Below, in pieces: positions 5,292-55,250 of a stretch of DNA of 64,000 nucleotides. The notes beneath the pieces were generated by a model, which had not been told where the DNA came from, made no database searches, and saw only the letters and a program-made list of their open reading frames with translations. The stretch is taken from NCBI RefSeq assembly GCF_002874965.1, contig NZ_CP025624.1, forward strand, positions 4,092,001 through 4,156,000. Direction: 5' to 3'. This stretch comes from Pseudomonas sp. NC02. Lineage in GTDB: Bacteria > Pseudomonadota > Gammaproteobacteria > Pseudomonadales > Pseudomonadaceae. A program made the position numbers and the translations under genes. How positions within the stretch are numbered: the first letter of the stretch is position 1; each line of letters begins with the position of its first letter.

Positions 5292-7829
5292 ATGAACGTA
5301 TCACCCACCGGCAGCGAGGCCGCAGCACTGATTGCGCGGCTGGACTGGGCACGAAGCCCCCTCGGTGACGCCATTGATTGGCCGCAAAGTCTCCGTACAG
5401 CCGTCGACATCGTGATCCATTCACCGATGCCGATGCTGTTGCTGTGGGGCGCCGAACTCACCCAGATCTACAACGATGGCTTCGCGATGCTGGCGGGCAA
5501 CAAGCATCCGGCAGCCTTCGGCCAACCGGCTGACCTGATCTGGCCTGAGCTCAAGCCGTTTACCGACCCGATCTACAGCGCCGTCCTCATGGGCCAGGTG
5601 CGCACCTTCACCGAGCAGCGTTTCGTCCTGCAGCGCAACGACCGCGACACCGAGATCTGGCTCGACCTGACCTACAGCCCGATCCGCGACGAACGTGGCG
5701 AGGTCGCCGGGATCCTGATTACCGCCATCGAAACCAACGAGCGCCGGCGCATCGCCCTGGAACTGCAGCAGCGCACCGAGAACAGCCTCAAGGCCCAGCG
5801 CAACACCGAGCAACGCCTGCAGCTGGCCCTGGCCGCCACCGATGCCGTGGGCACCTGGGACTGGGATATCGGCGAAGACCGCTTTATCGCCGACGCCCAT
5901 TTCGCCCAACTGCACGGTGTTGACCCGTGCGACGCCGACCTGCTGCCCATCAGCGACTACCTGCAAGGCGTGCACCCCGAAGACCGTGGCATGGTGGCCC
6001 GCAGCATCAAGCACTGCATCACCCACGGCACCGAGTACGCCGAGGAATACCGCCTGCAGCGCGCCGACGGCGAAGTGCGCTGGGTGTTTGCCCGGGGCCG
6101 CTGCTACAAGGACCACCATGGCCGACCGGCGCGTTTTCTCGGCGCCGCCCTCGACCTGACCGAACGCAAGCACACCGAACAGGCCCTGCGCCAAAGCCAG
6201 ACCGAGCTGCAACTGATCATCAACGCCATGCCGGTGTTGATCGGTTATGTCGACCACGAGCAGCGTTTTCGCCTGAACAACAGTGCCTATCTGGAATGGT
6301 ACGGCATGACCCCGCAGGAGTTGTACGGCAAGAGCATCCGCGAAGTCGTGGGCGACGAAATCTATGCCGGGCGCGTCGACAAGATCGAGGCGGCGCTCAA
6401 GGGCAAGGCCTGCAGTTTCGTTACCGTCACCCCGCACCATGACGGGCGGCCACGCCACGCGCTGATGAAGTACCTGCCGCGTTTCAGCGCTGACGGTTCA
6501 GTCAACGGTTTCTATATTTTTGTGATCGACGAGACCGAGCGCAAACTGACCGAAGAGGCCCTGCGCCACCTCAACGAAAACCTCGAAGAGCGCGTCAGCC
6601 AGCGCACCCAGGCCCTGGCCGAAGCCAACCAGCGCCTGCAAAACGAGATGTTCGAGCGCGAGCGTGCCGAAGACGCCCTGCGCCATGCCCAGAAGATGGA
6701 AGCGGTCGGCCAGCTCACCGGCGGCATCGCCCATGACTTCAACAACATGCTCACCGGGATCATCGGCAGCCTGGACCTGATGCAACGCTATATCGCCGCC
6801 GGGCGCAGCGACGAGATCGGCCGTTTCACCGACGCCGCCGTATCCTCGGCTCATCGCGCCGCTGCGCTGACCCATCGCCTGCTGGCCTTCTCCCGCCGCC
6901 AATCCCTGGACCGCAAGCCGGTCGACCCGAATCAATTGGTGGCGTCCCTGGAAGACCTGTTCCGCCGCACCAAGGGCGCGCACATCGAACTCAAGGTGCA
7001 ACTGGGCACCGACGTGTGGCCAGTGAACACCGACGCCAGCCAGCTGGAAAACGCCCTGCTCAACCTGGTGATCAACGCCCGCGATGCGATGCCCGACGGT
7101 GGGCAATTGTGCATCGAGACCGCCAACAGCTACCTCGACGGCACCGACATCACCACCCTGGAACCGGTCAAGGCCGGCGACTATGTGATGCTCGGCGTGA
7201 GCGACAACGGCGCCGGCATGACCGCGAAAATCCTCGCCAAGGCCTTCGACCCGTTCTTCACCACCAAGCCCATCGGCCAGGGTACCGGCCTTGGGCTGTC
7301 GATGATCTATGGGTTTGCACAGCAATCCGGCGGCCACGTGACCATCCAAAGCGAACCGGGCCAGGGCACCTGCGTGCGCCTGTACCTGCCGCGCCTGCAT
7401 GGCACGGCACTGGAGCGGACCACGCCCGCTACCCAGGGCGAAGCCCCGGTGGCGCTGGAAGGCGAAGCCGTGGTGGTGGTCGAGGACGACCCGGCAGTGC
7501 GGATGCTGGTGGTGAATGTGCTGGATGAACTGGGCTACACCGCACACCAGGCGGCGGATGCACGGGCGGCGCTGCCGTTGCTGGAGTCCGACTTGCGCGT
7601 GGATTTGCTGGTGACTGATGTGGGCTTGCCGGGGATGAACGGCAGGCAACTGGCGGAAATCGCCCGGCAACACCGGCCGGACCTGAAGGTGCTGTTCATG
7701 ACCGGTTACGCCGAGAAAGCCGCCGAGCGCCAGGGGTTCCTGGAGGAAGGCATGGACATGGTGGCCAAGCCGTTTTCGATTGACCTGCTGGCCAACAAAA
7801 TCCGCAGCATGATCAGCTCAGAGGCCTGA
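5292..7829 (+). CDS. PAS-domain hybrid histidine kinase with C-terminal receiver
   Basis: This is an 845-residue soluble sensor kinase with no obvious membrane segment. It has three PAS-like regions (about 25-155, 170-295 and 300-415), a predicted coiled coil with [18 protein letters not shown] near 430-460, and a HisKA domain with His481 in [11 protein letters not shown] HATPase domain follows, with [10 protein letters not shown] and [12 protein letters not shown] motifs, then a receiver from about 727 with acidic pair EDD and phosphoacceptor Asp776 in [14 protein letters not shown] prefer the ATG at 5292 over an upstream TTG at 5256, although the ribosome site is weak. No partner regulator is adjacent, so its output is unknown. 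Confidence 0.9.
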
Positions 7830-7871
7830 CTTCAGGCATAATCGCGCGCCGTTTCACATCAGGACCGATCA

Positions 7872-8147
7872 ATGAAAGCCCAAGCCCGTCACATTCTGGT
7901 GAAAACCAGTGAGGAAGCCGAACAGCTCAAGCAGCGTATTGCCAAGGGCGAAGCGTTTGATGTGTTGGCCAAGAAGTACTCCACCTGCCCTTCCGCCAAG
8001 CGCGGCGGTGATTTGGGTGAAGTGCGGCCGGGGCAGATGGTGGGGGTGATTGATGCGGTGATCTTCAAGAAGCCCGTGAAGGTGGTTCATGGGCCGATCA
8101 AGAGCAAGTTCGGGTATCACCTGGTGCAAGTGTTTTACCGCGATTGA
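7872..8147 (+). CDS. ppiC: Parvulin-type peptidyl-prolyl cis-trans isomerase (PpiC)
   Basis: This 91-residue single-domain parvulin has the ARHILVKTSEEAE start, the KYSTCPSAKRGGDLG core and the FGYHLVQVF end seen in PpiC. The length matches E. coli PpiC. It has no signal peptide, so it is a cytoplasmic proline isomerase. The ATG follows AGGA at a good distance. It is a single gene, followed immediately by a palindromic repeat. Confidence 0.93.
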   Translation: MKAQARHILVKTSEEAEQLKQRIAKGEAFDVLAKKYSTCPSAKRGGDLGEVRPGQMVGVIDAVIFKKPVKVVHGPIKSKFGYHLVQVFYRD

Positions 8148-8150
8148 TGG

Positions 8151-8261
8151 CTGATCGTTCCCACGCTCCGCGTGGGAATGCCTCACCTGACGCTCTGCGT
8201 CCGCTCTTGGGACGCAGAGCGTCCCTGGCTGCATTCCCACGCGGAGCGTGGGAACGATCAG
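8151..8261. repeat. Palindromic intergenic repeat (GATCGTTCCCACGCTC family)
   Basis: Two arms, GATCGTTCCCACGCTCCGCG and its reverse complement, flank an internal hairpin built on GACGCTCTGCGTC-like sequence. It is a different family from the GTGGGAGCGGG REPINs. A half copy lies at 18745. It fills the gap between convergent ppiC and the sugar kinase and may act as a bidirectional transcript end. Confidence 0.92.
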
Positions 8262-8263
8262 CG

Positions 8264-9172
8264 TTAGTCTCGGGGAATAAGTGCACCCGGCACCTGAATC
8301 ACCCGGCTCGCCAGCCGATGCCCGGCCAGTGCTGCATCCTGCGGCGAGCCGCCCTTGAGCCGACTGGCCAGGTACGCCGCACTGAACGAATCCCCCGCCG
8401 CCGTAGTGTCGACCACCTTCTCCACCACCAGCGCCGGCACCTCGAACCGCTCATCCTCCCAGCGAATCAAACACGCATCCGCCCCGCGCTTGAGCACCAC
8501 CTCGGCAATCGTCGGGTACGCCGCAAACACCTGCTCGCTGTCTTCATAGCCGAACAACGCCCGCTCGTCATCCTCGGTCAGCAAGGCGATATCCACCTCG
8601 GCCAACACCGCGTGATACGCCGCGCGTGCGGCGTCCACGCTGGCCCACAGGCGTGGCCGGTAGTTGTTGTCGAACACCACCTTGCCGCCGCGCTTGCGGG
8701 TTTCGACCAGGGTTTCCAGCAGGCGCGCACGGCCCACTTCGCCCAGCACCGCCAGGGTGATGCCGCTGAAATACACCACGTCATACCCCGGCAACGCGGC
8801 CAGAATCGGTTCGGCCGCCGCTGTGGTGAAGCAGTCGCGTACCGCCGCTTCGTTGCGCCAGTAGAGGAATTTGCGCTCGCCCTTGGCGTCGGTCTGGATG
8901 CAGTACAAACCCGGCAGGCGCCCGGGCAAGCGCTGGACCATACCCAGGCCCAGGCCTTCCTCAGCCCAGTGCTTGCACATGGCATCGCTGAAGCTGTCAT
9001 CGCCCAGGGCGGTGACGTAGTCGACGGTGCTCGGTTCACCCAGTTCGCGGCGCAGGTAGACGGCGGCGTTCAGGGTGTCGCCGCCGAAGCTTTGTTGCAG
9101 GCTGCCGTCGGCGCGGTGTTGCAGTTCGATCATGCATTCGCCGATCAGGGCGATGCGGGGTTTTGTGTTCAT
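8264..9172 (-). CDS. kdgK: PfkB-family sugar kinase, 2-keto-3-deoxygluconokinase-like
   Basis: This 302-residue ribokinase-fold enzyme begins MNTKPRIALIGECMIELQ. The PfkB signature 2 region DTTAAGDSFSAAYL near the C-terminus carries the catalytic Asp. KdgK-like members phosphorylate 2-keto-3-deoxygluconate. I chose the ATG at 9172, because upstream in-frame codons run into a REPIN. It lies downstream of a D-amino-acid deaminase-type gene across that REPIN. Its physiological substrate here is uncertain: the neighbours handle amino acids rather than sugar acids. Confidence 0.8.
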   Translation of the reverse strand: MNTKPRIALIGECMIELQHRADGSLQQSFGGDTLNAAVYLRRELGEPSTVDYVTALGDDSFSDAMCKHWAEEGLGLGMVQRLPGRLPGLYCIQTDAKGERKFLYWRNEAAVRDCFTTAAAEPILAALPGYDVVYFSGITLAVLGEVGRARLLETLVETRKRGGKVVFDNNYRPRLWASVDAARAAYHAVLAEVDIALLTEDDERALFGYEDSEQVFAAYPTIAEVVLKRGADACLIRWEDERFEVPALVVEKVVDTTAAGDSFSAAYLASRLKGGSPQDAALAGHRLASRVIQVPGALIPRD

Positions 9173-9204
9173 GCCTGGGGTCTCTCGATGTACTGGAGGG
9201 CCTC

Positions 9205-9288
9205 TTCGCGAGCAAGCCCGTTCCCACATTTGAATGCATTTCAACTGAAGGAACTCGGTCGAATGTGGGAGCGGGCTTGCTCGCGAAA
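9205..9288. repeat. REPIN between sugar kinase and deaminase genes
   Basis: The inverted arms start TTCGCGAGCAAGCCCG and end CGGGCTTGCTCGCGAA, with one mismatch (GTTCCCAC for GCTCCCAC) in the left arm. Confidence 0.93.
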
Positions 9289-46618: not shown

Positions 46619-48217
46619 TCAGAAAGTCGCCTGCACACTGAAGTGCAGTCGCGAGTCCTGTTTCTGGGTATTTGGGCCTTCAAGCAGCGGGTAGCCCCAA
46701 TCCAGGCTGCCGGACAACCACTTGCTCAAACTGGCGCGGGTGCCGAGGCCGACACTGGCCAGGCTGTATTCGTCTTCCTGCTCGGGCAGCGGGTCATGCA
46801 GGCGCAGGCGTGCGCCTTCGGCAAACGCGTAGAAGCGCCACTCCTGCACGTAGCTGCCGAGAAACTTGGCCAGGGACGGCGTGCGCAGCTCCTGGGACAA
46901 CAGGTAGCCTTCGTCGCCGGTGCGCTCGGCGGCGAGATACCCGCGTACCGACGTAGCGCCGCCAGCGGAATATTGCTCGTTGGACACCAGCGGCCCCGAG
47001 GCCAGCTGGAAGCCGGCCTTGGACGCCGACTGCCAGTCGTTGCCGAAGGTGTAGGTGTAATTCAGGTCACCCTTGAGCACCGCAAAACTCGGGCTGGCCT
47101 TGTCACGCTTGTACTGGAACTCCTCGGCGTCGCTGCCGTAGCCGAAGAACGCGCGGGTACCCACCACCAGGCTCAAGCCCAGCCCCAATTGCGACTGCTC
47201 GGTGTAGCGGTAGCCGTTGTAGCCGAAGGTCAGCGGTGCGTACTTGAGCGGGATATCGTCCGTGCTGCCGCCAAACTTCATCTGCTCCTTGAAGTCCTTG
47301 AAGTCGACCCCGGCAGAGAACGAATTGGCCCAATTGCCACTGGCCGGCAGGCTGTAGATCGCCGACACGCCGTAGGAATGGCCCTTGCCCAACACGTTGC
47401 TGCCGCCGATGGTGGCGATGTTGCTGTCGGACTGATAACCGGAGAACTGCAGGCTCCAGCGATCAGTCAGCGGCGCGGTGTAGGAGCCCGACCAGACCTT
47501 GGCGTTGTCGCTGTCCTGGGGTGCGGTGAAGTACGTCAGGGAAATGCTGTGGCCCAGTTGCCAGAGGTTGTCGTAACCCAAGGTCACGACGCTGCGCAGC
47601 TCCTTGGTGTCGGCGCTGTAGTCGTTGTTCAGGCCGAGGCTGGCGTGCCAGGGGTTCTGGTCTTCCACCTGCAGGTCGACGTCCATGGTGCCGGGGCGTT
47701 GGCCTTCGCGGACCAGCGGCGTGACCTGCCGCCCGGCGCTGCGATTGAGGCCGGCGAGTTGGGTTTGCACGCTGGTGAAATCCGGAACCGCGCCCTCCTT
47801 CAAGCCGGGTACTTCGTCGCGGATTTCCACCGGCGAATAGTGCTTGGCGCCGACCACGCGGACGCGCCCGACCTTGGTTTCGCTGACCTGCAGGTAGACG
47901 ATTCCGTCATCGACCTTCTGCTCCGGCAGTTCGACGAACACCGACTGATAGCCGCGTGCCTGATAGATCTTCTGCAAGGCATCCCGGGCGCCTTCGATGT
48001 CGGCGAGGGTCTTTTGCGGGCCGAGAAACGGGTACACCGCCTCTTCGATCGCACGAGCGTCGAGCACGGTGTTGCCGCGCACGAAGTACTCGTTGACGTC
48101 CACCAGCCGTGCCGGAGGCTCGGGCTGGGTGCCCTGCTCTTCGGCCTGTAGCGGTTGCGCCAGTGCACCCAGCGTCAGCCAGCACAGCGCCAGCGTTGAT
48201 TTGAACAGATGCTGCAC
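46619..48217 (-). CDS. pdtB: TpsB-type outer-membrane transporter (PdtB/ShlB/FhaC family)
   Basis: This 532-residue protein has a signal peptide (about 1-25), a POTRA region (about 38-115; YFVRGNTVLDARAIEEAVYPFLG), a second POTRA-like part and a C-terminal 16-strand barrel with the conserved loop motif VRGYLAAERTGDEGY near 415. It ends in phenylalanine (FSVQATF). TpsB proteins export one large TpsA protein. The order with phdA, exbB2 and exbD2 matches P. aeruginosa PA0691-PA0694, where PdtB exports PdtA; no TpsA gene is found here. Confidence 0.9.
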   Translation of the reverse strand: MQHLFKSTLALCWLTLGALAQPLQAEEQGTQPEPPARLVDVNEYFVRGNTVLDARAIEEAVYPFLGPQKTLADIEGARDALQKIYQARGYQSVFVELPEQKVDDGIVYLQVSETKVGRVRVVGAKHYSPVEIRDEVPGLKEGAVPDFTSVQTQLAGLNRSAGRQVTPLVREGQRPGTMDVDLQVEDQNPWHASLGLNNDYSADTKELRSVVTLGYDNLWQLGHSISLTYFTAPQDSDNAKVWSGSYTAPLTDRWSLQFSGYQSDSNIATIGGSNVLGKGHSYGVSAIYSLPASGNWANSFSAGVDFKDFKEQMKFGGSTDDIPLKYAPLTFGYNGYRYTEQSQLGLGLSLVVGTRAFFGYGSDAEEFQYKRDKASPSFAVLKGDLNYTYTFGNDWQSASKAGFQLASGPLVSNEQYSAGGATSVRGYLAAERTGDEGYLLSQELRTPSLAKFLGSYVQEWRFYAFAEGARLRLHDPLPEQEDEYSLASVGLGTRASLSKWLSGSLDWGYPLLEGPNTQKQDSRLHFSVQATF

Positions 48218-48277: not shown

Positions 48278-48880
48278 TCAATTGCTGGATATCGAGGTGT
48301 TGCCGTGCCGTGCGAGCCAGGTGTGCAGCAGGGCGAAGTTCAGGGAGAACTCCGGCATGTGCAGCAAGGCGCCACAGAACACTTCACCAATGATTTTCTG
48401 GATCAACTGCACCGCCTGCGGGTTGTTCAGGAACGTGGCGATGTCGCGTTGCAGGAGGTTGATGCCCCAGACTTTCTGGTTCAGGTCGAGGCCGACGAAC
48501 CAGCGGAACAGCAGGTTGTAGTTGAGTTGTTCGTGCAGTTGCTGTTCGTTGGGGACTGAGTACAGGAGTTGCAGCAGCAGGATCTGCAAGACGGTCTGGG
48601 GGGCGATCTGGGTGCCGGGTTGGGCCTGGAGCAGGTCGCGGTGGAGGTCGAGGATGTCGTCGATCTGCGGGCGCAACAAGACCAATGAATGGCCTGCGGG
48701 GATGTAGCTGGAGACTTCCTTGAGCGCGCCTTGCCAGTCGTCCTGGGAGACGATCCATACCCACGGTGCGCCATAGCGGTAGACCGAGACCGGTTTTTTG
48801 CGTGCGGCTTCGACGATCTTTGACAGGCGCTGGTCGAGCTCCTGCATGCCGACTTTCGAGTAACGTTCCATAGTTCCCAT
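48278..48880 (-). CDS. phdA: PhdA-like protein: Phd/YefM-like N-terminus plus transposase-derived domain
   Basis: This 200-residue protein has an N-terminal prevent-host-death-like segment (KVGMQELDQRLSKIVEAARK, VSVYRYGAPWVWIVSQDDW; residues ~8-50) and a C-terminal part like the N-terminal domain of IS5-type transposases (LLQLLYSVPNEQQLHEQLNY, LLFRWFVGLDLNQKVWGI). No catalytic transposase part follows. P. aeruginosa PhdA (PA0691), upstream of pdtB, affects biofilm lysis and DNA release. The ATG at 48880 follows AGGAG; an ATG at 48871 is possible. Confidence 0.8.
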   Translation of the reverse strand: MGTMERYSKVGMQELDQRLSKIVEAARKKPVSVYRYGAPWVWIVSQDDWQGALKEVSSYIPAGHSLVLLRPQIDDILDLHRDLLQAQPGTQIAPQTVLQILLLQLLYSVPNEQQLHEQLNYNLLFRWFVGLDLNQKVWGINLLQRDIATFLNNPQAVQLIQKIIGEVFCGALLHMPEFSLNFALLHTWLARHGNTSISSN

Positions 48881-49026
48881 TCGCCCCACTCCTGGCATCC
48901 TGCTTGCGGCTCTGACGTCGCCTTTTTTGGCGGTGTTGAGCGCGTTACATAGCCAAGACGGGGGTCGCTGGGGACTACCGAACTTTTGTCATAAAAGCTT
49001 CTTTTTTGGGGCGGGGTGAGGTGGGC

Positions 49027-49386
49027 ATATCCGTTGCTGCGGTCAGGGCTGGTATTGGTTCCGCTCTTACAGCGGCTCACTTTTGGAGTGTTGTGAAGCA
49101 AAATCAAAAGTCAAAGCGGGCACGGTTCAAATGTGGGAGCTGGCTTGCCTGCGATGGCATCGCCTCGGTGTATCTGAAAAACCGAGTTGTCTGCATCGCA
49201 GGCAAGCCAGCTCCCACAGAAAAGCAGAACCACGGAGTGCGGGCATGCCGAGCCTAGGCGAGGCATCGAGTGGTGGGGCAAAGACCTTTTGGTTACTTTT
49301 GGCTGGGCCGGCATTCCGGGCGTTTGCCAAAAGTGACCTGCTGTAAGAGCGGAACCATAAGCGGCCGTTACCGAAGAAACGGATAT
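49027..49386. mobile_element. MITE-like inverted-repeat element B (360 bp), non-coding
   Basis: ATATCCGTT (49027-49035) and AACGGATAT (49378-49386) are the same terminal repeats as in element A. Inside are the CCGCTCTTACAGCGGCTCAC arm, a REPIN, and the right-arm block with GCATGCCGAGCCTAGGCGAG. The left arm lacks the CCCCACCACTCGG block found in A, so it is shorter. Orientation matches A. The stretch 48881-49026 next to it should hold the phdA promoter. Confidence 0.8.
49132..49218. repeat. REPIN nested in element B
   Basis: Arms TGTGGGAGCTGGCTTGCC and GGCAAGCCAGCTCCCACA are inverted around a spacer containing CGGTGTATCTGAAAAACC. Confidence 0.93.
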
Positions 49387-49390
49387 GTAC

Positions 49391-49876
49391 TCAAACCAAA
49401 GACCCCGGCAACGGCAGTTCATAAGACTTCTTAACCGTCCGCACCACCAAAGTAGACGAATAAGTACGAATCGGAATATCCCGATAAATCTCTAAAAACC
49501 GATAGATATAATCAGTGTACTCAGTGGCATCCCGAAACTTCGCCACCATCACAAAATCAAACTCCCCGGTCAGCAGATAACAGTCCTGAATCTCCGGATG
49601 ACTCGCCAGGATATGCTGCATCTTGCGGTCGATATCATTGCTGTCCCTATCAAGCTTGATCAGGAAGAACGCCGTAACCTGAATCCCAAGCTTGCGCTCA
49701 TCCAGCACCGCCACCTTGGCCTTGATGATCCCGACACTCTCCAACCGCCTGATACGCCGGTAACAACTGGTTGAAGACAGCCCGACACTGTCACTCAACA
49801 ACTCCAGACTCTGACTGCAATCCCTTTGCAATTTCCCCAGAATCTTCAAATCCATGGCATCTGTCATTTTTTCCAT
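49391..49876 (-). CDS. Lrp/AsnC-family transcriptional regulator
   Basis: This 161-residue protein has an N-terminal helix-turn-helix (MDLKILGKLQRDCSQSLELL, SSTSCYRRIRRLESVGII) and the RAM ligand domain (CYLLTGEFDFVMVAKF). Lrp proteins respond to amino acids. It is divergent from the tyrosinase operon with 138 bases between, so control of that operon, perhaps by tyrosine or another amino acid, is plausible. The ATG at 49876 follows AAGGAAG; 49867 is an alternative. It ends 4 bases from element B. Confidence 0.92.
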   Translation of the reverse strand: MEKMTDAMDLKILGKLQRDCSQSLELLSDSVGLSSTSCYRRIRRLESVGIIKAKVAVLDERKLGIQVTAFFLIKLDRDSNDIDRKMQHILASHPEIQDCYLLTGEFDFVMVAKFRDATEYTDYIYRFLEIYRDIPIRTYSSTLVVRTVKKSYELPLPGSLV

Positions 49877-50014
49877 ATCTTCCTTGAAAAAACTGCAATG
49901 AATCCACCGTAAACACCCACCAATTTGCACAAATCCTGCGCGGTGGCGCACTAACATCAATCCAGCTTAGCAGCCCAGCCAAATCAGGCACCGGGGCCGC
50001 ATGAGAGGGATCTT

Positions 50015-51841
50015 ATGATAGTCGCGAAACCGACATGGGCCACCGATATCCACGGCCTATTCAGCGCCCCCTACTGGATCCCCCAAGAGCAACGCGCCGC
50101 CGTCGCCGCCTCCTGGGTGGGCTGCATGAACGCCTACTTCGTATTCCTCGAAGACCCCGCCTCCGTCAAGACCTGGTCCGAAACCATCTACCAGCACCTG
50201 GCCTCCCGTAGCATGCCGCTGACCCTCGATCAGCAGCAGTTCTGGCCCATCGACGCGCTGGAAACCTTCAGGCTGTGGGTCAACCAGGGCTGGCGCCTCA
50301 CTCCCGCCTCACCGTTCGACGAGGCAGAACGCATCCCCCCACCCGACCTGCCTCACCCGGTCAAACGCGTGCGCCAGGACATTCGCGCACTGACACAGGA
50401 ACAACTGAACCTGTACCGCTCACGCCTCGATGACGTAATGCAGGTGGCCAACGCCGACAGCGGCTCCCCTTGGCAGCGTTACGCCTATATCCACACCAAC
50501 TGGTGCCTGCATTACCAGGAAGCGTTTGCCCTGTGGCACCGGGCCTATCTGCTGTACCTGGAAGCGCTGATCGACTGCCCCATTCCCTACTGGGACTGGA
50601 TGGCCGAAGACGCCAGTGTCGACGGCAGCCCCCAGGCCGGCTTGCCCCAGGCGTTTCTCGATGAAACCTACGTGCACCCGCACACCGGCGAGGTTCGCCC
50701 TAATCCGTTGCGCTACGCCGCTGCCAAGGACGGCTGTTCGAAGGTCTGTGAAAAGGCCAGCATCCCGGGTGTGGACTGCCGCTTCGTGCAACGCAATCCG
50801 CTGTTCTACACCCGGGGCGAAACGCAGCGCGTCGAACGCACCCAGTTGTACGGCATGAGCCGGATTTTCCAGCAACAGGTGGTCGATGCCCTGAAGTTCA
50901 ACACCTTCAGCCAGCCCCAGGGCGTGCCAGGTTATCCCTGGGCGAACATCCCGGTGTTTGATCCCCCCCAGGAAGATGACCTGTACCCCAACCGTGCGCT
51001 GAATTTCGACGGGCTCTACGAGCAGCCCCACGACAACTATCACGGCTGGATCGGCGGCGACATGGCTGACAACGCCTACACCGCGTTCGACCCGGTGTTC
51101 AGCTCCTACCACGCCAATATCGACCGGATGCTGGAGGTCTGGATCCGCGCCCACCCGGCAGCGCAGTACACCACCCAGTGCCTGCTCCAGCCGTTTGCCG
51201 GCAGCGAGGCCGACGATGTCACCTTCACCAGTGCCGACGCCTGGCGCTACACCACCCTGGGGGACATGGCCCAGGACAGTCGGCATATCGGCTATGACTA
51301 CGGTGTGCCCGTCGCACCGCCCTTTGGCACCCGCCGCCCGGCCGCAAAAGCCTGCTGCCAGCAAAGTTCGACGCCGATGCAAGCGCAGGAACAAACCGCA
51401 AGCCTGGGCCCGTGGGTGGTGTTCGACCATGTGCGCTGCACCCACGACACCTACCTGATCGACGTATTCCTCAACCAGCCCGACGCCACGCCGCAGCAGG
51501 TGAGCGCCGACAATCCGCACTATGTCGGGCGCTTCAGTCGCATCGGCATGGGCCTGGTGGATGACAAGGGCCGCTGCATCACCCATGGCGTGTCACGCGC
51601 GCTGAATGCCGCGCGCACTGCTGCCGCATTGAACCTTCGCCCCACTGACACCACGCAGTTATCCGTGGTGGTGACCCATCTCGATAGTGCCCGGGTGTTG
51701 ACGCCGCAAGAGTACGCGCCGCTGCCTGGCTTTATCGCCCAACTGGTGTGGGACGACCCGCGCCAAACCGTCGCCGGCCCTGCTCCCAGTGCCGGTTGCT
51801 GCTCCGTTTCCACCACAACAACACCTGGAGAATCGACATGA
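50015..51841 (+). CDS. Tyrosinase-family type-3 copper oxidase
   Basis: This 608-residue protein has no signal peptide and a ~130-residue N-terminal extension. The CuA region NWCLHYQEAFALWHRAYL supplies His166 and His175, with Cys164 two residues before His166, as in the Cys-x-His thioether of fungal tyrosinases. His160 is the only nearby candidate for the first CuA ligand. CuB has His339 and His343 (HDNYHGW) and His366 (SSYHANIDRMLEVW). A C-terminal domain of ~150 residues ends with Cys pairs (KACCQQ, GCCSVS). It probably oxidises phenols with oxygen. It overlaps the next gene by 4 bases. Confidence 0.9.
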   Translation: MIVAKPTWATDIHGLFSAPYWIPQEQRAAVAASWVGCMNAYFVFLEDPASVKTWSETIYQHLASRSMPLTLDQQQFWPIDALETFRLWVNQGWRLTPASPFDEAERIPPPDLPHPVKRVRQDIRALTQEQLNLYRSRLDDVMQVANADSGSPWQRYAYIHTNWCLHYQEAFALWHRAYLLYLEALIDCPIPYWDWMAEDASVDGSPQAGLPQAFLDETYVHPHTGEVRPNPLRYAAAKDGCSKVCEKASIPGVDCRFVQRNPLFYTRGETQRVERTQLYGMSRIFQQQVVDALKFNTFSQPQGVPGYPWANIPVFDPPQEDDLYPNRALNFDGLYEQPHDNYHGWIGGDMADNAYTAFDPVFSSYHANIDRMLEVWIRAHPAAQYTTQCLLQPFAGSEADDVTFTSADAWRYTTLGDMAQDSRHIGYDYGVPVAPPFGTRRPAAKACCQQSSTPMQAQEQTASLGPWVVFDHVRCTHDTYLIDVFLNQPDATPQQVSADNPHYVGRFSRIGMGLVDDKGRCITHGVSRALNAARTAAALNLRPTDTTQLSVVVTHLDSARVLTPQEYAPLPGFIAQLVWDDPRQTVAGPAPSAGCCSVSTTTTPGEST

Positions 51842-53574
51842 GCACACCCTTCAAACAATTCACCTCTCCCGCCGGGCAAGCTCCCAAGGACTACAACAAG
51901 CTGGGCCTGGAAAACCAGTTGCCGCAGTTTGAAACCGACTGGAACAACGACCTCACCGGCTGGACCCAGTCCGCGATCATCGGCAACCCGTGGTCGGGCC
52001 TCAATGACGCGCCGCGCTCGGGCTATTACAACCCACTGGTGGAAGGCTACGGCCCCACCACGCCGCCGGCGATTACCTGGGCGCCCTTCCCCAATCGGCT
52101 GTGGACGTTTTTCTACAACAACGGCACGGCGGTGATTCCACAGTTGGGCGGCAAGGCCATGTCCATGCAACAGTTGATGGAGCTGACCGACAACGGCCAG
52201 ATTACGATCAACAACACCCTGTACATGCTCTACGACCCGAACAAGCAAGGCACCCTGCTGCAACTCCCCGTCACTCGCTGCCCGAGCATCGACTGGCAAG
52301 GCAAGTACAAGGATTTCTCGCCTTCGGGCCCCCGTGGCTGGCTTGACGAATATTGCGAGTGGTCCATAGTGCGCGATGCCGACGGCAACATGCGCAAGAT
52401 CACCTTCACTTGCGAAAACCCGGCGTATTTCCTGGCCATGTGGCGCATCGATCCGACTGCTGTACTGGGGCTGTATCGCGACTACATCGACCCGCAGGTG
52501 CAACTCGAAGACCTGTACCTGCGCTACACCGCCGACTGCCCGACCGGTAAGGCCGGCGACCCGGTCATCGACCCCACCACCGGTCAACCGGCCTACGACA
52601 CCGTCAACAAATGGAACGCCGGCACCGCCTGTGTGCCAGGCCAATACGGCGGTGCGATGCACCTGACCTCCGGCCCCAACACCCTGAGCGCCGAGGTGTA
52701 CCTGGCTGCCGCGGCGACCATCCTGCGGCCATTGAGCAGCAGCCAGAATTCCCAGGCGTTGATCTGCTGCGCGCAATACGGGCAGAACTACCGCAACTCC
52801 GATCCGCATATCGGTTTCTCGGCCAACAGCGTGGCAGTGAATAACCGGCTCTCCCTGACCAACCCCATCGGCCTGTACCTGCAACAACCCACCGACTTCT
52901 CGGCGTGGAAAGGCCCCCAGGGCCAGGACGTCAGCCAGTACTGGAAAATCACCCGTGGCACCGCCAAGTCCGCCGCCAACGGCTCCGACCAGATTCTGCA
53001 AGCGGTGTTTGAAGTGCCGGTCAGCGCCGGGTTTTCGATCAACGACATCACCATCAGCGGCCAGCCGATCGACTACGTGTGGGTGATTGCCCAGCAGTTG
53101 CTGGTGGGCCTGAGTGTGACAACCACGCCCATCAGCCCGACGCCGGATTCCTGCCCGTGCGTGACGGACCGGGTCAACGGTGTGCAACCCTGGCCGGTAC
53201 AGCTGTTGCCGCTGGACCTGTTCTACGGGCAGTCACCCACCGACCTGCCGGCCTGGCTGGCACCCGGCACCAGCGGGCAGTTTGCCCTGGTGGTGCAAGG
53301 CGCCGACCTCAAGACCACCGCCGAGACGGCGCGGGTGCAATTCTCCAATCCCGGGGTGACGGCGCAGGTCACAAAGTTCCTGCCGGATGCCTCGGCCATC
53401 CCCGGGCAAACCAACTCCGGTGGCACCCAGGGCTACCTGCTGACCATCACCGTAAGCCCCACTGCCGCACCGGGGCTGGTGACAGTGCGCGCCCTCAACC
53501 CGGGCGAAGCCGATAACCCCAGCGCGGCGGAACACCCATGGGAATCCGGATTGGCGCTGGTGCCTGGCGCCTGA
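51838..53574 (+). CDS. Unrecognised 578-residue protein of the tyrosinase operon
   Basis: The ATG at 51838 overlaps the tyrosinase stop (ATGA) and follows GGAG. No signal peptide or membrane segment is visible. The first ~400 residues are rich in Trp, Tyr and Pro, with nine cysteines in the protein, including ICCAQ and CPC. The last ~110 residues look like an Ig/IPT-type beta domain (SGQFALVVQGADL, APGLVTVRALNPGE). It could be a partner enzyme, a copper or substrate carrier, or a structural product. I know no family match. Confidence 0.8.
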   Translation: MSTPFKQFTSPAGQAPKDYNKLGLENQLPQFETDWNNDLTGWTQSAIIGNPWSGLNDAPRSGYYNPLVEGYGPTTPPAITWAPFPNRLWTFFYNNGTAVIPQLGGKAMSMQQLMELTDNGQITINNTLYMLYDPNKQGTLLQLPVTRCPSIDWQGKYKDFSPSGPRGWLDEYCEWSIVRDADGNMRKITFTCENPAYFLAMWRIDPTAVLGLYRDYIDPQVQLEDLYLRYTADCPTGKAGDPVIDPTTGQPAYDTVNKWNAGTACVPGQYGGAMHLTSGPNTLSAEVYLAAAATILRPLSSSQNSQALICCAQYGQNYRNSDPHIGFSANSVAVNNRLSLTNPIGLYLQQPTDFSAWKGPQGQDVSQYWKITRGTAKSAANGSDQILQAVFEVPVSAGFSINDITISGQPIDYVWVIAQQLLVGLSVTTTPISPTPDSCPCVTDRVNGVQPWPVQLLPLDLFYGQSPTDLPAWLAPGTSGQFALVVQGADLKTTAETARVQFSNPGVTAQVTKFLPDASAIPGQTNSGGTQGYLLTITVSPTAAPGLVTVRALNPGEADNPSAAEHPWESGLALVPGA

Positions 53575-53589
53575 CTGATACAGCCCATC

Positions 53590-53616
53590 AGCCGCACCCA
53601 CCCAGGGTGCGGCTTT
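53590..53616 (+). terminator. Strong hairpin inside the tyrosinase operon
   Basis: AGCCGCACCC (53590-53599) and GGGTGCGGCT (53605-53614) form a perfect 10-bp stem with a 5-base loop, followed by TT only. It lies 15 bases after the second gene and before the cytochrome-type gene. It may terminate part of the transcripts or set the level of the third gene. Confidence 0.55.
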
Positions 53617-53636
53617 ACCTGCTTGCAAGGAGCGCG

Positions 53637-55250
53637 ATGATGTCCAGGTTACGCTTGAGTGTTTTATCGCTGCTGACCAGTGTGGTGCTGAGCCTGTTCG
53701 CCATGCAGGCCGCCTACGCATCCCCCACTTCCGACGCCGACGCTTGCGTGCAGCAACAGTTGGTGTTCAACCCGAAAAGCGGCGGCTTCCTGCCGATCAA
53801 CAACTTCAACGCCACCGGCCAGAGCTTCATGAATTGCTTTGGCTGGCAGTTGTTCATTGCCCTGAACTGGCCGGTGAATCCCGGTTGGCCAGCCACACCT
53901 ACCCTCGCGGGTGAGCCGGACATGAACAGTACCCTGGCGCAATTCGGCGTACCGACTGCCTCCGGGCAGCCGATGAGCGTGGCGCCGGTATGGGCCAGCT
54001 ACAAGGACGCCAACGATATCTTCCTGCCCGGCGCGCCCGCGCCCACCGGCTGGGGCGTGCAAACCTTGGTGCCGTCCAACTGCAGCACCCAGGGCAGCCT
54101 CAGGGCGATGTCGGTGGGGGCGCGCAAGTTCATGACCGCCACCTCCGAAAGCGCGATCAACGCGCGGCATGGGTTTCACCTGTCCAGCGGCACCCTGGCC
54201 TCGATTCCGGACCCGATCATGGAAGCCTCCGGCGGCTGGCTGACAGACCAGTCGCAGAACCTGGTGTTTTTTGAACGCAAGGTGGGCAAGGCCGAGTTCG
54301 ACTACATCGTCAGCAAAGGGCTGTACGACGCGGCCAACCAGCTGAAAGTCGCGCAGAACCTCGACAACCAGAACCCCGGCGGGCTGTCCTTGCCCATCGG
54401 TGAACCCATGCGCTCGCTGCCGCCCAACCCGGTGCCGCAGGAGCAACTGGGAGCTCTGGAGGTCAAGGCAGCATGGCGAATCCTCACCGGCAAACCCGAG
54501 CTCTACGGACGTTACCTGACCACCGTCGCCTGGCTCAAAAACCCGGCCACCTTGCAGTGCACCCAGCAGGTGGTGGGCCTGGTGGGCCTGCATATCATCA
54601 ACAAGACCCAGGCCTCGCCCAACTTCATCTGGACCACCTTCGAGCAAGTGGACAACGTGCCGGAACCCAACCAGGTGCCGCCACAACAAACGCCGCCCGA
54701 CAGCTTTGCCTTCAACAACCCGAACTGCGGCACCGGCCCCGAATGCACGCCGAACGTGGCGCGTATCCAGTGCAAGCAGCAGCATCCGGACCGCGACTGC
54801 ACCGAGCCGTTTCCACGGGACCAACCCGTGCAGACCACCCGGGAACATCCGCTGCCCACTGAACTGCAGGCGCTTAACGGCGCGGTGCAGGCCAATTTCG
54901 CCCAGCAGAGCCAGGGCAAGTCGGTGTTCCAGTACTACAAACTGATCAACGTACTCTGGACCCTCACCCCCAACCCGCCCACCCAGCCGGAACCGGGTGT
55001 CAGTGCGCAAGTGCCGCTGTCCTACGGGCCGTTTATCAGCCAGGGCAACGTACCGGTGGCCAACACCACCCTGGAGACCTACGTCCAGGGCGATAACTGC
55101 AATGCCTGTCACCAGTACGCGACCATCGCCGGCAGCTCGACCCTGGCCTCGGACTTTTCGTTCCTGTTCAACAGTGCCGATTCGGCCAGCAAGAAAAGCC
55201 TGGTCAAGCGCGTAAAAGCCTTCCAGACCCTCAAGGACGGTTCACCCTGA
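53637..55250 (+). CDS. Exported protein with a single C-terminal CXXCH heme site
   Basis: This 537-residue protein has a signal peptide (about 1-30, LSLFAMQAAYA) and a CNACH motif near the end (Cys488, Cys491, His492), so it likely carries one covalently bound heme c in the periplasm. The middle ~430 residues match no family I know; it has several cysteines (GTGPECTPN, IQCKQQH, RDCTEPF). AAGGAG precedes two adjacent ATGs (53637 and 53640). An electron acceptor or transfer role for the tyrosinase operon is possible, though the tyrosinase itself looks cytoplasmic. Confidence 0.8.
   Translation: MMSRLRLSVLSLLTSVVLSLFAMQAAYASPTSDADACVQQQLVFNPKSGGFLPINNFNATGQSFMNCFGWQLFIALNWPVNPGWPATPTLAGEPDMNSTLAQFGVPTASGQPMSVAPVWASYKDANDIFLPGAPAPTGWGVQTLVPSNCSTQGSLRAMSVGARKFMTATSESAINARHGFHLSSGTLASIPDPIMEASGGWLTDQSQNLVFFERKVGKAEFDYIVSKGLYDAANQLKVAQNLDNQNPGGLSLPIGEPMRSLPPNPVPQEQLGALEVKAAWRILTGKPELYGRYLTTVAWLKNPATLQCTQQVVGLVGLHIINKTQASPNFIWTTFEQVDNVPEPNQVPPQQTPPDSFAFNNPNCGTGPECTPNVARIQCKQQHPDRDCTEPFPRDQPVQTTREHPLPTELQALNGAVQANFAQQSQGKSVFQYYKLINVLWTLTPNPPTQPEPGVSAQVPLSYGPFISQGNVPVANTTLETYVQGDNCNACHQYATIAGSSTLASDFSFLFNSADSASKKSLVKRVKAFQTLKDGSP

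Follow-up and report, generated by a model that had tools for sequence, protein, structure and literature searches.

Bacterial oxidase operons are among the known systems closest to the locus analyzed here. The passages of PMC2855505 that deal with tyrosinase partners describe MelC1 (Streptomyces) as a caddie and PpoB2 (Marinomonas) as a partner of these enzymes, and a passage of PMC4417212 states that some LodA/LodB oxidase operons also contain tyrosinase genes. Our locus lies in Pseudomonas sp. NC02 (genome of one contig, 6.89 Mb), in a stretch of 64,000 nucleotides (NZ_CP025624.1, positions 4,092,001 to 4,156,000) hereafter called the window, and has three genes on the forward strand: a tyrosinase-family type-3 copper oxidase of 608 residues (50015..51841), a partner protein of 578 residues (51838..53574), and an exported mono-heme-c protein of 537 residues (53637..55250). 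As in the MelC1 and PpoB2 systems, a type-3 copper oxidase shares its operon with a partner gene, but the partner has 578 residues here and occurs in genomes without any tyrosinase match. The likeness to LodA/LodB operons is that LodA and LodB-like genes follow the partner/heme-c pair in 3 of 80 loci, whereas the window genome has no LodA_N match and the partner no LodA domain.

The Partner and Heme-c Proteins Form the Conserved Unit

Open reading frame (ORF) calls and Pfam matches confirmed the gene order proposed in an initial annotation of this DNA (tyrosinase, partner, heme-c protein, with a divergent Lrp-type regulator), as well as the coupling of the first two genes by an ATGA at 51838-51841, in which the partner start overlaps the tyrosinase stop codon. 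To assess conservation, one genome per species was scanned with two peptide patterns, biased toward the long subfamily of the partner, which yielded 161 relatives; the best 80 of the 161 are the named loci discussed below. Partner and heme-c genes were adjacent and on the same strand in 78 of these 80 loci, the two exceptions being a contig that stops after the partner (L055) and a broken partner ORF (L088), and they were seen in Pseudomonadota, Bacteroidota, Myxococcota, Cyanobacteriota, and other taxa. A tyrosinase homolog accompanied them in 44 of the 80 loci, with only its N-terminal domain in L028 and L029 and in degenerate form in L027 and L036. It was missing from the other 36, including L062 and L078, for which its absence cannot be claimed because fewer than 400 bases of upstream sequence are available. 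A PF00264 search covered 39 genomes: those of the loci lacking a homolog, L051 and L062 excepted (34 of 36), plus L028, L029, G107, G185, and G217 (whose coordinates are identical to those of G434, probably the same genome). It gave a match in 9 and none in 30, some of these genomes being incomplete metagenome-assembled genomes (MAGs). A partner tree was built by a quick method from 89 sequences, of which 85 were labelled and several form long rows. On this tree, the distribution of intact tyrosinases needs at least nine changes, and the relatives nearest to the window partner belong to Pseudomonas yamanorum and other Pseudomonas.

These data show that the conserved unit is the partner/heme-c pair, and that the tyrosinase is frequently missing and in some loci is cut short or has a degenerate catalytic site. 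We thus rejected the idea that the partner is a helper of tyrosinases only, as the pair often occurs without tyrosinase in the 39-genome search, in the tree, and among the 80 loci. The distinction drawn initially between the partner and MelC1-type caddies stands, given the partner's 578 residues and the 30 of 39 genomes lacking a PF00264 match, while the idea of a primarily tyrosinase system does not. The two observations that the initial annotation had named as speaking against it, unconserved adjacency and strong matches of the partner proteins to unrelated families, were both looked for and neither was made. The finding is real and broader than first noted, the tyrosinase being one among several oxidases that join the pair.

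Within Pseudomonas, the association is much tighter. The partner was matched in 31 of 398 genomes searched (one marginally, at E 8.5e-4), and all three families were found together in 29 of the 30 loci examined, the distant L113 lacking the tyrosinase; among the 29, the tyrosinase of L110 and L111 is reduced to its N-terminal domain, and the partner ORF of L112 is broken. Because all three families occur in 29 of 30 loci, their co-occurrence is above chance. It also favors a dedicated tyrosinase system, in which the 578-residue protein would be an oversized caddie or copper chaperone and the heme protein would receive electrons, as do the ATGA overlap and a protein (P0055, possibly cut by a contig end) in which the C-terminal part of a tyrosinase is joined ahead of a partner. 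The window genome has no PpoB2 match either, but the controls were also unmatched, so that absence is unproven. Such a system is nevertheless quite unlikely in view of the 30 partner genomes without a PF00264 match, even though several of the assemblies are incomplete. In addition, nine Chryseobacterium loci have a tyrosinase followed by a gene of a single cluster before the pair; in L052, the only one of them tested by Pfam, DUF7868 is present in the tyrosinase, and the next gene belongs by its Pfam match to PpoB2, a family of copper chaperones. A gene of the PpoB2 cluster adjoins these tyrosinases, yet the pair is kept.

The Tyrosinase and Its Remnants

Assignment of the first gene product to the type-3 copper oxidases is supported by a PF00264 match (E 8.6e-32) of 111.7 bits, the curated cut-off being 22.6, and this ORF is the sole PF00264 match in the window genome. 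The catalytic di-copper domain (50468..51148, forward strand; Pfam stretch at residues 152-378) contains all six candidate copper ligands, which we take, from the motif pattern, to be H160, H166, and H175 for CuA and H339, H343, and H366 for CuB. Among 48 aligned homologs, H175 and H366 are kept in 47, H166, H339, and H343 in 46, and H160 in 39; Cys164, two residues ahead of H166, is kept in 47. The window protein is a candidate for monophenolase and diphenolase activity.

Homolog alignment delimits an additional N-terminal domain of about 110 residues (50015..50350, forward strand), which can outlast the catalytic one. The latter is gone from the ORFs of L028, L029, L110 (the same gene as L159), and L111, and L028, L029, and L159 form a single, fully supported Pseudomonas branch. 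The remnant seems to have been kept for a reason, under weaker constraint than the partner, because its ratio of nonsynonymous to synonymous substitution rates is 0.26-0.28 and that of the partner 0.14-0.19; synonymous sites are close to saturation, and the L028 remnant carries a short deletion. In two Thalassospira loci, the tyrosinase ORF is open but degenerate: in L027, a Ser stands in place of H166, the next position being His, and the H339/H343 stretch is absent, and in L036 five of the six ligands are changed. An alphaproteobacterial MAG (L154) encodes the N-terminal domain as a stand-alone gene of 188 residues beside a tyrosinase, and also contains the start of an N-domain tyrosinase, cut by the contig end, divergent from LodA and LodB-like genes. 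A database search with the N-domain alignment returned 16 short proteins, many of which come from short contigs and are therefore perhaps fragments. We rejected an equivalence between this domain and the small protein encoded between lodA and lodB, as the 135-residue gene at that place in L157 was not matched by the N-domain model.

The Partner Protein

Partner homologs numbered 1004 at E<=0.001 among 7999 candidates scored. The initial annotation recognized no family for this protein, which is true of the database copies that we searched (no match up to E 1 in a Pfam copy without the PF26676 model, and none in NCBIfam), but all 120 listed relatives bear the precomputed database label PF26676.1. 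We found no paper on PF26676 in open-licence PubMed Central, which does not show absence from print. The structure model (predicted local distance difference test [pLDDT] 93.4, predicted template modeling score [pTM] 0.93) supports the proposed Ig-like C-terminus: VIA structure matches cover residues 448-578 (53179..53571, forward strand), and Foldseek retrieved beta-sandwich proteins, Ig-like ones among them (best E 6.3e-4). In these whole-model searches, residues 1-447 were unmatched; this stretch was not searched alone and may have a known fold. Searches of PDB sequences with the sequences and profiles of the partner and heme-c proteins gave nothing or chance-level rows only. The conserved core, residues 161-432 (52318..53133, forward strand), is the part that tblastn finds in common with shorter plasmid-borne relatives, and in a 13-row alignment D170, E171, Y172, E174, E193, H275, R297, R319, S321, and D322, among others, are invariant.

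In the same alignment, Trp81, Tyr172, Cys173, Cys192, and Cys311 are invariant or almost so, which would suit a scenario in which the partner itself does the catalysis and has one residue (Tyr, Trp, or Cys) that is oxidized by the copper and heme proteins to a built-in cofactor, much as LodB and MauG make built-in cofactors in quinoproteins. LodA and LodB-like neighbors in some loci point the same way, and so does the top VIA match of the partner C-terminus, the Ig-like domain of quinohemoprotein amine dehydrogenase alpha. The latter protein has two heme-c sites, whereas the partner has no CXXCH and its first 447 residues are unmatched. We consider this scenario unlikely, because the pair remains intact where the copper enzyme has been lost, the partner has no LodA domain, and the unmatched core fold allows no active site to be assigned. 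A relationship between the partner and LodA itself was rejected, as neither LodA_N nor LodA_C was found and Pfam gave no match up to E 1.

Some loci carry two partner genes (L053, L060, L063, L072, and L076), and P0050 is a single chain with two partner domains.

The Heme-c Protein

The third protein has a comparable spread (1300 homologs among 8000 candidates scored) and has no match in the Pfam and NCBIfam copies searched. It was described initially as an exported protein with a single CXXCH, in agreement with its hydrophobic N-terminus and its one CNACH (residues 488-492; 55098..55112, forward strand). C488, C491, and H492 are present in all 59 aligned homologs; 3 of the 120 listed relatives lack a CXXCH, none of which is among the 59. 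A single hydrophobicity cut was passed by 114 of these 120 relatives versus 2 of the 120 partner relatives. Four partners have starts that resemble the twin-arginine translocation (Tat) motif, and no export signal was seen on the window partner or tyrosinase, the latter showing no signal peptide.

The predicted fold (pLDDT 86.7, pTM 0.89) weakly resembles the five-stranded sheet fold of cytochrome P460/c'-beta. The window protein is, however, three to four times longer, and the sequence link is significant only at the CXXCH region, the comparison of its profile with the P460 strands being not significant; PF16694 matched none of the 59 homologs at E up to 10. K277 is invariant in all 59, and K277 and H319 may correspond to the heme-cross-linked lysine and the distal acid of P460, an alignment made by eye that was used for no count. 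A separate, ordinary cytochrome P460 is encoded elsewhere in the window genome (L124, 3700691-3701062; PF16694 E 8.2e-38).

One CXXCH and a hydrophobic N-terminus would also be expected of an ordinary cytochrome c that links a phenol oxidase to the respiratory chain as its electron carrier. This is very improbable, as tyrosinases use O2 directly, 23 residues are invariant across the 59 homologs, the model is P460/c'-beta-like, and the heme-c protein occurs without tyrosinase. The plain electron acceptor suggested initially is not favored by the invariant residues and weakly P460/c'-beta-like predicted fold.

Other Oxidases and Mobile Settings

In three loci, the genes downstream of the pair include LodA and a LodB-like gene: L042 (Cellvibrio MAG), L045 (Burkholderia lata), and L049 (Burkholderiales MAG). 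The name LodB is given here from position after LodA and from flavoprotein Pfam matches. LodA_N was present somewhere in 15 of 40 genomes searched. A further candidate oxidase, cluster c70 of L041, was rejected because it was judged to be a membrane protein. In L060 (2-1861) and L075 (273-2597), an exported-looking beta-propeller-like protein is encoded immediately upstream of the pair.

Twenty-five plasmid records contain a partner match by tblastn, 14 of them typed as conjugative; the match spans 80% or more of the query in 5 and has an identity under 60% in 20. Among six records examined, that of Paracoccus denitrificans PD1222 carries tyrosinase (PDEN_RS23115), partner (RS23110), and heme-c protein (RS23105) genes as well as an Lrp regulator (RS23120), and the other five encode shorter partner relatives retaining residues ~161-432. 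LodA genes are found near two of these five relatives, one of which also adjoins a Dyp-type peroxidase. Four of the five are accompanied by a second large protein, which is fused to the partner core in Azospirillum and encoded upstream in the others. This protein is kin to the CXXCH protein that, in L053 and two Nostoc loci, is found beside extra copies of the partner. The motif cysteines of this family are lost in all three plasmid forms that reach the stretch. Because CFDCHH is replaced by PFDSH in some members (L161, L162, and L165 versus L053, L072, and L076 for the two sets compared), covalent heme seems to have been lost in part of the family. The joined proteins of P0055 and Azospirillum support physical contact between the components.

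LodA neighbors and these mobile settings are what might be expected of a secreted weapon, i.e., a complex producing extracellular quinones or peroxide, like the peroxide of LodA-type oxidases. We regard this as decidedly unlikely given the lack of a visible export signal on the window partner and tyrosinase.

Two plasmids have further peculiarities. That of Mycetohabitans endofungorum (L163) encodes a short partner relative, a Dyp-type peroxidase, a LodA/GoxA protein, and a halogenase-like flavoprotein in one gene run; no paper on LodA with a Dyp-type peroxidase was found in open-licence PubMed Central, which does not imply absence from print. That of Microvirga sp. VF16 (L161) encodes a fusion of the partner core with a phospholipase D-like domain (6731-9220), and the second gene upstream of it encodes an S8 peptidase.

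Regulator and Surrounding Sequence

The divergent Lrp/AsnC-type regulator (49391..49960, reverse strand; PF13404 E 8.8e-12, PF01037 E 7.8e-10) probably starts nearer 49880 than the ORF start. A relative at E<=1e-20 was found in 30 of the 80 named loci and in 29 of the 35 whose tyrosinase homolog has the N-terminal domain. A divergent regulator of the Lrp type suggests that expression responds to an amino acid, for instance tyrosine. Between the partner and heme-c genes lies a GC-rich hairpin with a 10-bp stem (53590..53614, forward strand); the RNA of 53572-53640 folds at -27.2 kcal/mol (z -3.19, only 1 of 200 shuffles folding better). The hairpin is not among the terminator-like sites called, and perhaps causes uneven expression inside the operon. 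The heme-c ATG at 53637 is preceded by AAGGAG at 53627-53632.

On the other side of the regulator, the reverse strand encodes a two-partner secretion outer-membrane transporter of the ShlB/FhaC type (46619-48217; Pfam ShlB E 1.3e-23) and, at 48278-48898, an ORF that has a transposase DUF772 domain and weakly matches the Phd/YefM antitoxins. GCTGGCTTGCC occurs in inverted copies at 49139 and 49201, which we presume to be a Pseudomonas repetitive extragenic palindromic element.

A Proposed Two-Protein Redox Module

We propose, with somewhat less than an even chance of being right, that the PF26676-labelled protein and the large exported heme-c protein form a redox module that has acquired a type-3 copper oxidase. 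The copper enzyme would dock onto the pair by its N-terminal domain and oxidize a phenol or catechol. The partner core, in which acidic, His, and Arg residues are invariant, may bind the substrate or the oxidized product, and the heme-c protein, whose heme pocket would be open as in P460/c'-beta, could carry out a second step of one-electron or peroxidase type. In species without tyrosinase, the substrate of the pair would be one for which no copper step is necessary. It is possible, though doubtful, that the pair represents a widespread and unrecognized class of two-protein redox enzymes, combining a partner core unmatched in the PDB with a greatly enlarged P460-like heme-c protein, in which tyrosinase and LodA/LodB are interchangeable and the small docking domain of the tyrosinase outlives it after deletion of the catalytic part.

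Our literature search of open-licence PubMed Central found no role for either family, despite their 1004 and 1300 relatives. The presence of the full set in Paracoccus denitrificans, a strain in standard laboratory use, makes a direct test of the module possible. If the pair is one redox enzyme, many hypothetical proteins would gain a function, and the biology of tyrosinases in Gram-negative bacteria would partly need re-reading.
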